IMG/VR virus record: IMGVR_UViG_3300045999_000957
Span: 1 to 32,388 of that record
Source: a virus
Direction: 5' to 3' (one strand)
DNA length: 32,388 nucleotides
Part shown: positions 6,112 through 8,380 of the stretch, piece by piece
Numbering within the stretch: position 1 is the stretch's first letter
Layout of the letters: every line of letters starts with the position of its first letter
The notes under the pieces: model-generated
Told to the model about the DNA's origin: nothing
The model's database searches: none
What the model saw: only the letters and a program-made list of their open reading frames with translations
Translations under genes and position numbers: made by a program

Positions 6112-6954
6112 TTATTCTGTACAAGTGATGTCAACGCAACCACCAGCATCAATAGCAACAGCGCCAGCACTGAACATTGAGCTAACTAACCAAGAGGTTT
6201 TCTCTGGGATGTAGTTGATCTCACTGCGAATTGCCATGCTCTCAGCCATGCCGACTGCCATTTTGTGATAGGCATACACCTTACGGGTAGAACCAGAGCC
6301 ACCACCAGTTAAACCGCCTTCAGTGCGGTCACCAATAGTGATGAAGTTAAAACCCATAAAGCTGGTGATGTCACCTTGCACTAATGCTTTGACGCTGTTG
6401 AAGTCAGAACTTGTGACAGCAGTCTCAGACAAAAGGCTTGATAACTGTGATGCATGGATCAATATATAGCGATCTTCTGCGGGTACGTTTGAAGTATTTA
6501 GCAAACGTGATGCCTCACGCAATTTAGCCATATTCAAGTTTGTACCAGCGCCACCAATGCTAGTAGCAACTGTCAAGCTAGTGCTTGATGCCGCTAATGC
6601 GTCAATGATCATCTGGTCTGAACGACGACCAATCGCCTTAGCAACAACTTGCACCAACTCTTGGCGCTCGTCAAAGTTGACTTTAGCTTGATTGAATATA
6701 TCACTGTATTCAGCCGCAATGTAGTCAGTTAACGTGACAGTTGCTTGTGAATAAGTGACATTGAGTGGGGTAACGTCAGTCTGTGGTACACGAACTTGTG
6801 CAACGCCAGAGCCGATCTTTGGGAACTTATGTGTGCTTGCAGTAACGCCAGTACGTAGACGAACAGTATTACGCAAGACAGCATCAGCTTGATACGCTTG
6901 TTTTACTTCCGTGTCGAACAGCGTGACGAAAGCATTGGAAATGCTAATAGCCAT
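6112..6954 (-). CDS. Major capsid protein, 280 aa
   Basis: Forms the icosahedral shell. The N-terminus (ISNAFVTLFDTEVKQAYQAD) followed by the segment with LRTGVTASTHKFPKIG, the TLTDYIAAEYSDIFNQAKVNFDE region and the C-terminal YHKMAVGMAESM are typical of the HK97-fold capsids of T7-like environmental phages. It lies after portal and scaffold, as in T7 gene order. The ribosome site AGGAG is 7 bases before the ATG. It has a dedicated promoter (7094-7124), a 130-nt leader and a downstream terminator hairpin, consistent with its high copy need. Confidence 0.9.
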   Translation of the reverse strand: MAISISNAFVTLFDTEVKQAYQADAVLRNTVRLRTGVTASTHKFPKIGSGVAQVRVPQTDVTPLNVTYSQATVTLTDYIAAEYSDIFNQAKVNFDERQELVQVVAKAIGRRSDQMIIDALAASSTSLTVATSIGGAGTNLNMAKLREASRLLNTSNVPAEDRYILIHASQLSSLLSETAVTSSDFNSVKALVQGDITSFMGFNFITIGDRTEGGLTGGGSGSTRKVYAYHKMAVGMAESMAIRSEINYIPEKTSWLVSSMFSAGAVAIDAGGCVDITCTE

Positions 6955-7093
6955 GTGTTTTCTCCTAGAAAACGGTTGATGAAATGTTTATCGCCAACGG
7001 TTGTCCAGAAAACTCTGGGCCAAGACTTGTGCCTTACAGCGCACCCCTGAATAGACTACTATCATTACTGGCCTTGCGGTTGTCAGTGTTTGC

Positions 7094-7124
7094 ATTCTAA
7101 ACCATATTTTTCTACTTGTGTCAA
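7094..7124 (-). promoter_or_regulatory. Sigma-70-like promoter of the capsid unit
   Basis: On the minus strand a perfect -35 TTGACA (7119-7124) is followed after 17 bases by TTTAGA (7096-7101) or after 19 bases by TAGAAT (7094-7099). The start would be near 7088, giving a leader of about 130 nt before the capsid ATG. The leader contains a small perfect hairpin (CCAGA-GTTT-TCTGG) and two AACCGTT motifs, one just before the AGGAG ribosome site. Confidence 0.75.
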
Positions 7125-7139
7125 CTATTTTCTGGCATA

Positions 7140-7420
7140 GCTTCCCCAAGGGTGGATAGCCAAGGTATCCAGCCCTACCCGAAGGGTCATGCTTTAAGGG
7201 GTAGTTATTCAATTAACTCCCCCCTCATAACCAATCCAGTAAACCCATGAGGTAGCGATTCATCCGACATACGCTTGGTCCCACCCATGTACGTATATCT
7301 ACCCTAGTCCCTCGCTAACAGGCTAGTCGGAAGGCTTGGGGGTGTATCCAAGTCCGGTGTTTATTGGGTTCAGTCCATGCAGACCATCAGCTAACGCGCC
7401 CTGACGGTTGATATCGAGAC
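7140..7420 (-). ncRNA. Candidate structured RNA between scaffold and capsid
   Basis: No convincing gene lies here, yet the minus strand folds densely. Stems seen: ACCGTCAG/CTGATGGT (7383-7408, with a G-U pair that would be A-C on plus); CGGA+CTTGG/CCAAG+TCCG with a 3-base bulge (7328-7356); AGGGG+AGTTA/TAACT+CCCCT (7197-7225); an alternative CCTCAT/ATGAGG (7223-7252); GGG+GGATA/TATCC+CCC (7150-7175). This density in 280 bases is far above the rest of the window by eye. It does not match a family I know (no group I intron core, no tRNA). It could be a cis leader, a packaging-related RNA or a stand-alone RNA. An open frame at 6988-7212 overlaps part of it but lacks a recognisable ribosome site and composition, so I do not call it. 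Confidence 0.5.
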
Positions 7421-7423
7421 AAT

Positions 7424-7516
7424 AAAAAAACCGTTACTACTGCACTGGGTCGTTCCCTCCACTAGGGAGGCCAATGCATGAGTAACGGTTCTCTACTGTT
7501 GTGAACGACTACAACG
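7424..7516 (-). ncRNA. Candidate small RNA of about 93 nt with its own terminator
   Basis: Downstream of a TATAAT (7523-7528) the minus strand reads a short hairpin (GTTGT-8 nt-ACAAC), a linker, then a long stem CCGTTACT/AGTAACGG (7431-7438 with 7481-7488) continued by TGCA/TGCA and CCTCC/GGAGG, and ends in seven U (7424-7430). That is the layout of a terminator-ended small RNA. The 3' arm ends AACGGTTTTTTT and is complementary to AACCGTT sites in the capsid leader. The start point is inferred from the -10 box. It could instead be a second terminator of the scaffold transcript. Confidence 0.5.
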
Positions 7517-7522
7517 GTTTAG

Positions 7523-7550
7523 ATTATACATAAAAAAAGCCCCCGCGCAA
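7523..7550 (-). promoter_or_regulatory. Possible promoter of the small RNA, overlapping the terminator
   Basis: A consensus -10 TATAAT (7523-7528, minus strand) lies 16 bases after a weak -35 TTGCGC (7545-7550) that is part of the scaffold terminator stem. The start would be near 7516. The -10 is perfect but the -35 matches only half of the consensus. Confidence 0.45.
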
Positions 7551-7559
7551 GCAGGGGCT
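7532..7559 (-). terminator. Rho-independent terminator after the scaffold gene
   Basis: Minus strand AGCCCCTGC-TTGC-GCGGGGGCT: a 9-bp stem with one U-G pair, a 4-base loop and a following run of T. It lies 45 bases after the scaffold stop and should end the terminase-portal-scaffold transcript before the capsid gene. Confidence 0.88.
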
Positions 7560-7603
7560 AAGTCTAGAAGGAATATCCATGAAAACTGACTTACGCCAGC
7601 CCC

Positions 7604-8380
7604 CTAACCATACCTCTTTTCAAAGAGTTTTTCAACCTTTGCACGGTATCCAGCATCAACTTTATATTTAGGATCGGCAACCATGCTGGACAATTCCTCA
7701 TCAGACATAGCAGTTTCCCCACTATTCTTCAAAGTTTCTACTGGTACACGGCCTTCATAAGTCTGGCGTAACTTCATCAAAGCCTTCATGCCCTGTGCTG
7801 TGCCGCCCCAGACCTTGTATTCCTCAAAGTCATCTCCTGACCAGATACCCTTTTGCACCATGCCACGCGCCCAAGAGGTCATATTGCCAATGATGGCATC
7901 TGCATTAGGACCAAGGGCTTCCCGTTCTTTCTTGGCTGATAACTGGGCTTGCTGGTTATTACTAGCCCCCATAGTGGTGATCTCTTTGGCTAAGTCTTCA
8001 AAAGCTTGCTGGCTGATGCCATACTTTTGCGCCCATCCAAGGTAAGACTGGACAACTGGATCGTCCTGATTTAGTCCTTCAAGGGCTTCTAAGTTGTACT
8101 TTCCGCCTTCAGGAGCCTTGTGGCCGCCTGCCCTGAACTTCTTTTCTAGTTCTACGTAGGATTTACTAATTCCCTCTAGATCAGGCTCCGCTTTGTCTTT
8201 GTTCCAGAATTTCTCTGGCCAGAAGTCTGGTCTGTCTAGGGGTGTATCGTCTTCAGTGCCGGCTGGTTTCTGAAGGTGTTCGATAGTGGATTGCTCTTGG
8301 CTACTGGTTGTCGGCTGACTGGGGTCTTCAACAGACACGCCATCTAGCAGGCCAGAGTTGTCATTTGCTTCTTCACTCAT
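7604..8380 (-). CDS. Capsid assembly scaffolding protein, T7 gp9-like, 258 aa
   Basis: An acidic, low-complexity N-terminus (EEANDNSGLLDGVSVEDPSQ) leads into the conserved PDFWPEKFWNKDKAEPDLEG region with SY-ELEKKF, followed by helical segments and a basic C-terminus (KVEKLFEKRYG). This is the usual scaffold pattern in T7-like phages: the basic tail binds capsid and the acidic part is disordered. It starts on a TAATG overlap with the Bbp19-like gene and lies between portal and capsid as in T7. Confidence 0.88.
   Translation of the reverse strand: MSEEANDNSGLLDGVSVEDPSQPTTSSQEQSTIEHLQKPAGTEDDTPLDRPDFWPEKFWNKDKAEPDLEGISKSYVELEKKFRAGGHKAPEGGKYNLEALEGLNQDDPVVQSYLGWAQKYGISQQAFEDLAKEITTMGASNNQQAQLSAKKEREALGPNADAIIGNMTSWARGMVQKGIWSGDDFEEYKVWGGTAQGMKALMKLRQTYEGRVPVETLKNSGETAMSDEELSSMVADPKYKVDAGYRAKVEKLFEKRYG

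Follow-up and report, generated by a model that had tools for sequence, protein, structure and literature searches.

A conserved phage RNA with covarying pseudoknots, closing at a start codon within an accessory cassette

Introduction

Pseudoknots that lie beside or over a ribosome-binding site and start codon occur in the S4 alpha operon, S15, preQ1-II and SAM-II elements. A phage-associated structured RNA, Betaproteobacteria-1 (RF02932), reportedly stems from a 2017 paper, and the HEARO/IscB omega RNA lies beside an ORF in an accessory element. GOLLD (RF02032) and ROOL are phage-encoded, pseudoknotted RNAs of unknown function that are often found near tRNA islands and sometimes carry tRNA or tRNA-like parts; ROOL measures ∼660 nt and GOLLD often exceeds 800 nt (PMC12286853).

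The RNA described here, element A, resembles the pseudoknot operators and riboswitches in that its structure abuts a ribosome-binding site and start codon, but it is larger, bears a 5′ domain, follows a terminator-like RNA and is tied to no single gene or ligand. Like GOLLD and ROOL it is phage-encoded and contains many pseudoknots. Those two RNAs are, however, much larger than element A, whose relatives vary in length (242–305 nt, with flanks) and covary as RNA, and neither of them is known to close with a start codon or to lie behind an invariant small RNA.

Element A was found in a virus record of 32,388 nucleotides (IMGVR_UViG_3300045999_000957), which was analysed whole and is called the window. 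An original prediction had placed a densely structured RNA of no described family on the minus strand at 7140–7420, between the scaffold and capsid genes, and had proposed that it acts in capsid expression, packaging or host control. The interval is indeed intergenic and its borders were almost exact. The position, the strand and the novelty of the RNA are borne out by the results below, which give no support to the proposed action in capsid expression or packaging.

Results

Layout of the scaffold–capsid gap

The gap between the scaffold ORF (7604–8380, minus strand) and the capsid ORF (6112–6954, minus strand) spans 649 nt, and the sole ORF touching 7140–7420 is a 74-aa frame with a TTG start (6988–7212). 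Read along the minus strand, the gap contains a terminator, a TATAAT box, element C, element A, a micro-ORF, the capsid promoter and leader B (Table 1). Elements C and A together occupy ∼380 nt. Element C (7515–7423) and leader B (about 7100–6990), a second and a third structured RNA, lie beyond the interval first predicted.

Table 1. Features of the scaffold–capsid gap in window coordinates.
Feature	Position	Strand	Basis or remark
Rho-independent terminator of scaffold operon	7531–7559	−	GC hairpin and T7; directly precedes cassette
Putative cassette promoter, −10 box TATAAT	7523–7528	−	7 nt ahead of element C
Element C, small RNA: 5′ hairpin, kissing loop, terminator-like stem with U-run	7423–7515	−	Covariance model R2
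C kissing-loop strand 1 (GTCGTTC)	7503–7509	−	Complementarity in dereplicated relatives
C kissing-loop strand 2 (GAACGAC)	7449–7455	−	Complementarity in dereplicated relatives
Element A, pseudoknotted RNA ending in start codon 7138–7136	7136–7408	−	Covariance model R1, alignments, covariation
A 5′ domain: P1 (7401–7399/7368–7366) enclosing P2 (7385–7382/7375–7372)	7366–7401	−	Paired variants
Hairpin H-alpha (7352–7348/7339–7335), conserved CACCC loop	7335–7352	−	Top covarying pairs, E<0.01
Helix H-beta (7326–7321 with 7311–7304)	7304–7326	−	6 pairs, covariation
Pseudoknot strand H-gamma 5′, within H-beta loop; partner 7258–7253	7312–7317	−	Covariation
Pseudoknot strand H-gamma 3′	7253–7258	−	Covariation
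Hairpin H-delta (7299–7292/7273–7266), loop with GGUGG and CCAAG	7266–7299	−	Covariation
3′ clamp: CCACC 7155–7151 with GGUGG 7285–7281; CUUGG 7150–7146 with CCAAG 7278–7274	7146–7155	−	Covariation
Start codon closing A and 5-codon micro-ORF MPENS*; stop overlaps capsid −35 box	7121–7138	−	Sequence
Capsid promoter TTGACA...TAGAAT	7094–7124	−	Also in relatives without cassette
Leader B, structured 5′ UTR of capsid gene, distinct from cassette	about 6990–7090	−	Pattern and some covariation

Element A folds into a covarying, pseudoknotted structure

Folding energies gave a divided answer. The minus strand of 7140–7420 folded no better than expected (z −1.25; 19 of 200 shuffles as good; not significant), and the plus strand gave a z of −0.67; for the whole gap the z was −4.46, with 0 of 20 shuffles as good. 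The excess folding implied by the original prediction is significant for the gap as a whole and not for the interval itself, and minimum-energy folding, not significant for element A alone, was dropped as a criterion for it.

Covariation among relatives was decisive and identifies minus-strand 7408–7136 (∼270 nt) as a conserved structured RNA. A covariance model (R1) detected the core at 7361–7243 with 101.7 bits (E 7.8e-26) as a single copy in the window record. In an L-INS-i core alignment of 64 dereplicated relatives, 16 column pairs were significant at E<0.05 when compared with 100 null alignments simulated on the tree, a null that is a GTR+G simulation rather than R-scape and is applied to related sequences that are not independent; an earlier alignment of 49 relatives, possibly also made with L-INS-i, gave 7 pairs below the same threshold, again with nulls simulated on a tree. 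Most of the 16 pairs fall in the proposed helices, and the few others involve positions of the 5′ domain at which its two versions differ; these positions are not base-paired to one another. Across the helices, 98.4% of the cells are paired, compared with 65.8% in shuffles and 24–40% when the partners are slid. The crossing helices H-beta and H-gamma (6 pairs each) are 100% paired, and two-sided changes occur at each of their 12 pairs; H-delta is 95.9% paired, likewise with two-sided changes at all 8 of its pairs (alignment A2). The 5′ domain occurs mostly in two versions; P1 is GGG/CCC in 43 sequences and CCA/UGG in 16–17, and P2 is found in GU, CG, AU and GC versions. In locus L088 the 5′ domain is duplicated in tandem, the second copy carrying compensatory changes in hairpin P2. 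The helices contain G-U pairs on one strand only, which supports an RNA of minus-strand sense.

Two more long-range pairings link the last 10 nt of element A ahead of the ribosome-binding site (CCACCCUUGG) to the H-delta loop. In the first pairing of this clamp (n=63), GGUGG/CCACC occurs 55 times and GGUGA/UCACC 8 times, with none discordant; in the second, CTAG goes with CTAG and CAAG with CTTG without exception. A resemblance to T-boxes (GGGUGGGACC) was dropped because the GGUGG strand pairs and covaries with the 3′ end of element A itself. A group I intron was also rejected, as there is no Rfam match and, on inspection, just 3–4 nt separate the H-beta and H-gamma 5′ strands, leaving no room for P4–P6.

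Element A ends in a start codon

A start codon follows CACCCUUG in 125 of 126 copies of element A (101 AUG, 14 GUG and ∼10 UUG), at a distance of 7–9 nt in all but one of the 125. A Shine-Dalgarno-like GGRG adjoins it in most copies; others have no Shine-Dalgarno, as with CTAAACCT in L006, L023 and L162. No terminator is visible at the 3′ end of the element. The start codon opens the next gene (at least 60 codons) in 19 of 64 dereplicated loci, and at ∼18 more a short leader ORF from element A stops within ∼15 nt of the start of the next gene, as in translational coupling. In the capsid clade, the window included, it opens just 2–13 codons. The genes that follow elsewhere encode a replication initiator, YbcO, PAPS reductase, Mom-like, DpdA-like and other proteins, and have no common function.

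The cassette comes and goes at a fixed site

Among 80 capsid relatives, elements C and A are both present in 14 and both absent from 65, and one has C alone. Comparison of the window with L207, L208, L210 and L218 shows that the insert follows the scaffold terminator, precedes the capsid promoter and ends near CTATG; in cassette-free relatives, three of which were checked in detail and have capsids 93–96% identical, the terminator is followed directly by the promoter. At the same site L215 carries a different RNA; this type also occurs in L228, there together with C and an HNH ORF. This presence and absence, together with other RNAs at one site, marks the promoter, C and A as an accessory, exchangeable cassette, judged from the aligned genomes. 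The small HNH endonuclease ORF of L228 (∼110 aa, ∼1990–2330) starts right after the C-linked RNA.

The leader B pattern was found ∼150 nt upstream of the capsid genes in 77 of the 80 relatives (L206–L285), and the base stem of this leader shows some covariation. By this comparison leader B and the capsid promoter form no part of the insert and are older than it. The proposal that element A regulates capsid synthesis or aids DNA packaging, which its position between scaffold and capsid genes had suggested, is hard to credit: most capsid relatives do without the cassette, the capsid gene has its own promoter and leader downstream of element A, and elsewhere the cassette lies ahead of genes for replication, nucleases or DNA modification and is thus not specific to capsids or packaging.

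An insert of this kind could also be a mobile element in which RNA and ORF act jointly, akin to HEARO or OMEGA, with the nuclease mostly lost or swapped. Such a reading would account for the patchy occurrence among close relatives, an RNA that ends where an ORF starts, the HNH ORF of L228 and the YbcO HNH genes after element A in other phages. It is nevertheless improbable, as there is no HEARO match, the L228 ORF is too small for IscB, the cargo genes are mostly non-nuclease, and neither a target-site duplication nor a guide was seen; in the window the next gene is the capsid gene.

Element C is a separate RNA that precedes several large RNAs

A covariance model (R2) identified element C in the window as a single copy (72 bits, E 1.9e-15) and found one C per phage record wherever it occurs; second matches are the same palindrome on the opposite strand. 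The loop of its 5′ hairpin is perfectly complementary over 7–9 nt to a 3′ bulge in all 42 dereplicated copies, and the kissing-loop sequences differ widely among them. On this pattern element C is a phage RNA in its own right, with a covarying kissing loop, and is absent from Rfam. A −35/−10 pair matching at least 9 of 12 positions precedes 74% of 88 dereplicated C loci, against 10% of shuffles, and the −10 box mostly lies 6–7 nt before C. These boxes are promoter-like, at a fixed distance from C, and would make the cassette promoter sigma-70-type.

The C pattern was matched at 141 or more loci (L092–L200 among them) and is commoner than element A, relatives of which were found by HMM at 136 of 201 collected loci (IMG/VR and one phage record). 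C also occurs behind other phage genes without A; L014, L036, L059 and L018 have A without a C recognisable to the covariance model. What follows C is A, A with an alternative 5′ domain, or one of several other large structured RNAs, which BLAST sorts into at least five multi-member groups besides A (L092–L200). The RNA directly behind C in L120 and L188 scores above the Betaproteobacteria-1 cut-off. In this position Betaproteobacteria-1 is like element A; the window and the A-bearing loci searched give no match to it at the gathering score.

The C-linked RNAs show further features. Between C and A, L009, L045, L047 and L072 have tRNA-like inserts with a T-arm-like hairpin, and L114, L116 and L117 also have tRNA-like inserts, either there or in peripheral helices of C-linked RNAs. 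The T-arm look in the first four was rejected as a tRNA beside A, being part of a larger insert between C and A. In L195, of another C-linked type, a hairpin bearing a T-run lies close to the 3′ end of the RNA. In yet another type (L129, L200, L094, L136 and L141) GTGGATAAC repeats resemble DnaA boxes; since they occur only there, the idea of DnaA boxes was dropped for element A.

It is highly improbable that conservation acts on the DNA, as a replication origin or packaging site that folds when single-stranded. The DnaA-box-like repeats of that other type and the frequent position beside replication-initiator genes would fit such a site. Against it stand the G-U pairs on one strand only, the promoter-like boxes and U-run at C, the location within structural genes in the window, and the loss in close relatives, which is hard to reconcile with an essential origin.

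The main competing explanation, which we hold to be possible though doubtful, is that element A and the other C-linked RNAs are ornate noncoding RNAs that become abundant during infection and act in trans, similar to GOLLD and ROOL, with a start codon that is incidental or serves coupling only. A single copy per genome, unrelated downstream genes, a promoter of its own, exchangeable large RNAs behind a constant C, the tRNA-like inserts in some and near-total absence from bacterial genomes would all suit an RNA of this kind, as would the likeness to GOLLD and ROOL, also pseudoknotted phage RNAs often near tRNA islands (PMC12286853). The conserved distance of the start codon and its coupling to the next gene speak against it, as do a length (∼270 nt) well below that of GOLLD and ROOL, a window free of tRNA and a 3′ end with no visible terminator.

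Element A matches no Rfam family and was found almost entirely in phages

Rfam 15 at the gathering score gave no match for the window or for 12 related loci, which together with the covariation agrees with the claim that the RNA belongs to no described family; the same search of the window and A-bearing loci assigns element A to none of RF02932, GOLLD, ROOL and HEARO. At E≤10, the matches in 6900–7650 were mostly terminator-hairpin lookalikes, suhB reaching 26.7 bits against a cut-off of 41. ARAGORN found no tRNA in the window or at the A loci tried, and neither ARAGORN nor Rfam places element A among tRNAs or tmRNAs. A search of the open-access literature found no paper describing this RNA.

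Comparison of the gap with phage records by BLAST returned one match, MW202484 from a spring-water podovirus (192 nt at 75% identity), where the genomic context is different. In that record (L001, 5038–5397) the annotation runs a 'hypothetical protein', UOF77725.1, through both C and A, which is probably a false gene call. For the C-linked loci L096, L113 and L166, BLAST against annotated phages gave either nothing or partial matches, to MW202484 and over 41 nt to MW202426. The conserved 5′-block pattern of element A was found in 84 IMG/VR stretches, to which looser patterns added few, and was absent from all 84,980 bacterial and archaeal genomes; searches for A in plasmids and E. coli genomes yielded nothing. 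Among bacterial genomes the C pattern matched two metagenome-assembled betaproteobacterial contigs, one with A (alternative 5′ domain), which hints at freshwater Burkholderiales as hosts; in 301 genomes of the family, the C model matched solely the metagenome-assembled genome that had supplied the query.

Discussion

The occurrence of an intricately folded RNA in many unrelated phages of fresh water, as an optional part placed right before a start codon, suggests a gene-expression switch passed among phages. We favour, with a probability of roughly 0.47, the reading that element A is a cis-acting leader controlling the translation start of whatever follows. The cassette would be an accessory unit of transcription, inserted with the scaffold terminator ahead of it and the capsid promoter behind it; C and then A would be transcribed from its own sigma-70-type promoter. 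C folds as a kissing-loop RNA, and its terminator-like final stem may limit read-through into A by attenuation. Element A forms a compact multi-pseudoknot RNA, the clamp tying its last 10 nt to loops of the core, and this fold would set, and probably switch in response to some signal, the access of ribosomes to the start codon. In most phages outside the capsid clade that codon opens the next gene or is translationally coupled to it; in the window the cargo gene would be missing, leaving the 5-codon micro-ORF.

The covarying pseudoknots, the fixed spacing of the start codon and its coupling to the gene that follows support the leader reading, as do the GGRG, the boxes at a fixed distance from C, the co-occurrence of C and A and the CTATG junction. 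Other observations weigh against it. Downstream genes without a shared function would be unusual for a ligand-specific regulator, and a general expression platform would not be expected in a single copy per genome. Within the capsid clade no more than 2–13 codons follow from the start codon, some copies have no Shine-Dalgarno, and the 3′ hairpin and T-run of L195 would better fit a free RNA.

A broader proposal extends the leader reading to the other C-linked RNAs. Lytic phages would share an exchangeable cassette in which a constant C, acting as promoter plus attenuator, is followed by one of several unrelated large RNAs, each delivering a start codon and controlling a plugged-in accessory gene, and element A would be a bacterial counterpart of an IRES-like translation module; on the present comparisons we consider this unlikely.

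The RNA family found here in phages of lake and river bacteria is large, statistically solid and apparently undescribed. Loci of the same type also harbour Betaproteobacteria-1, an RNA listed in Rfam without an assigned role. Should the leader reading hold, phages would trade ready-made expression units made of RNA, not protein.
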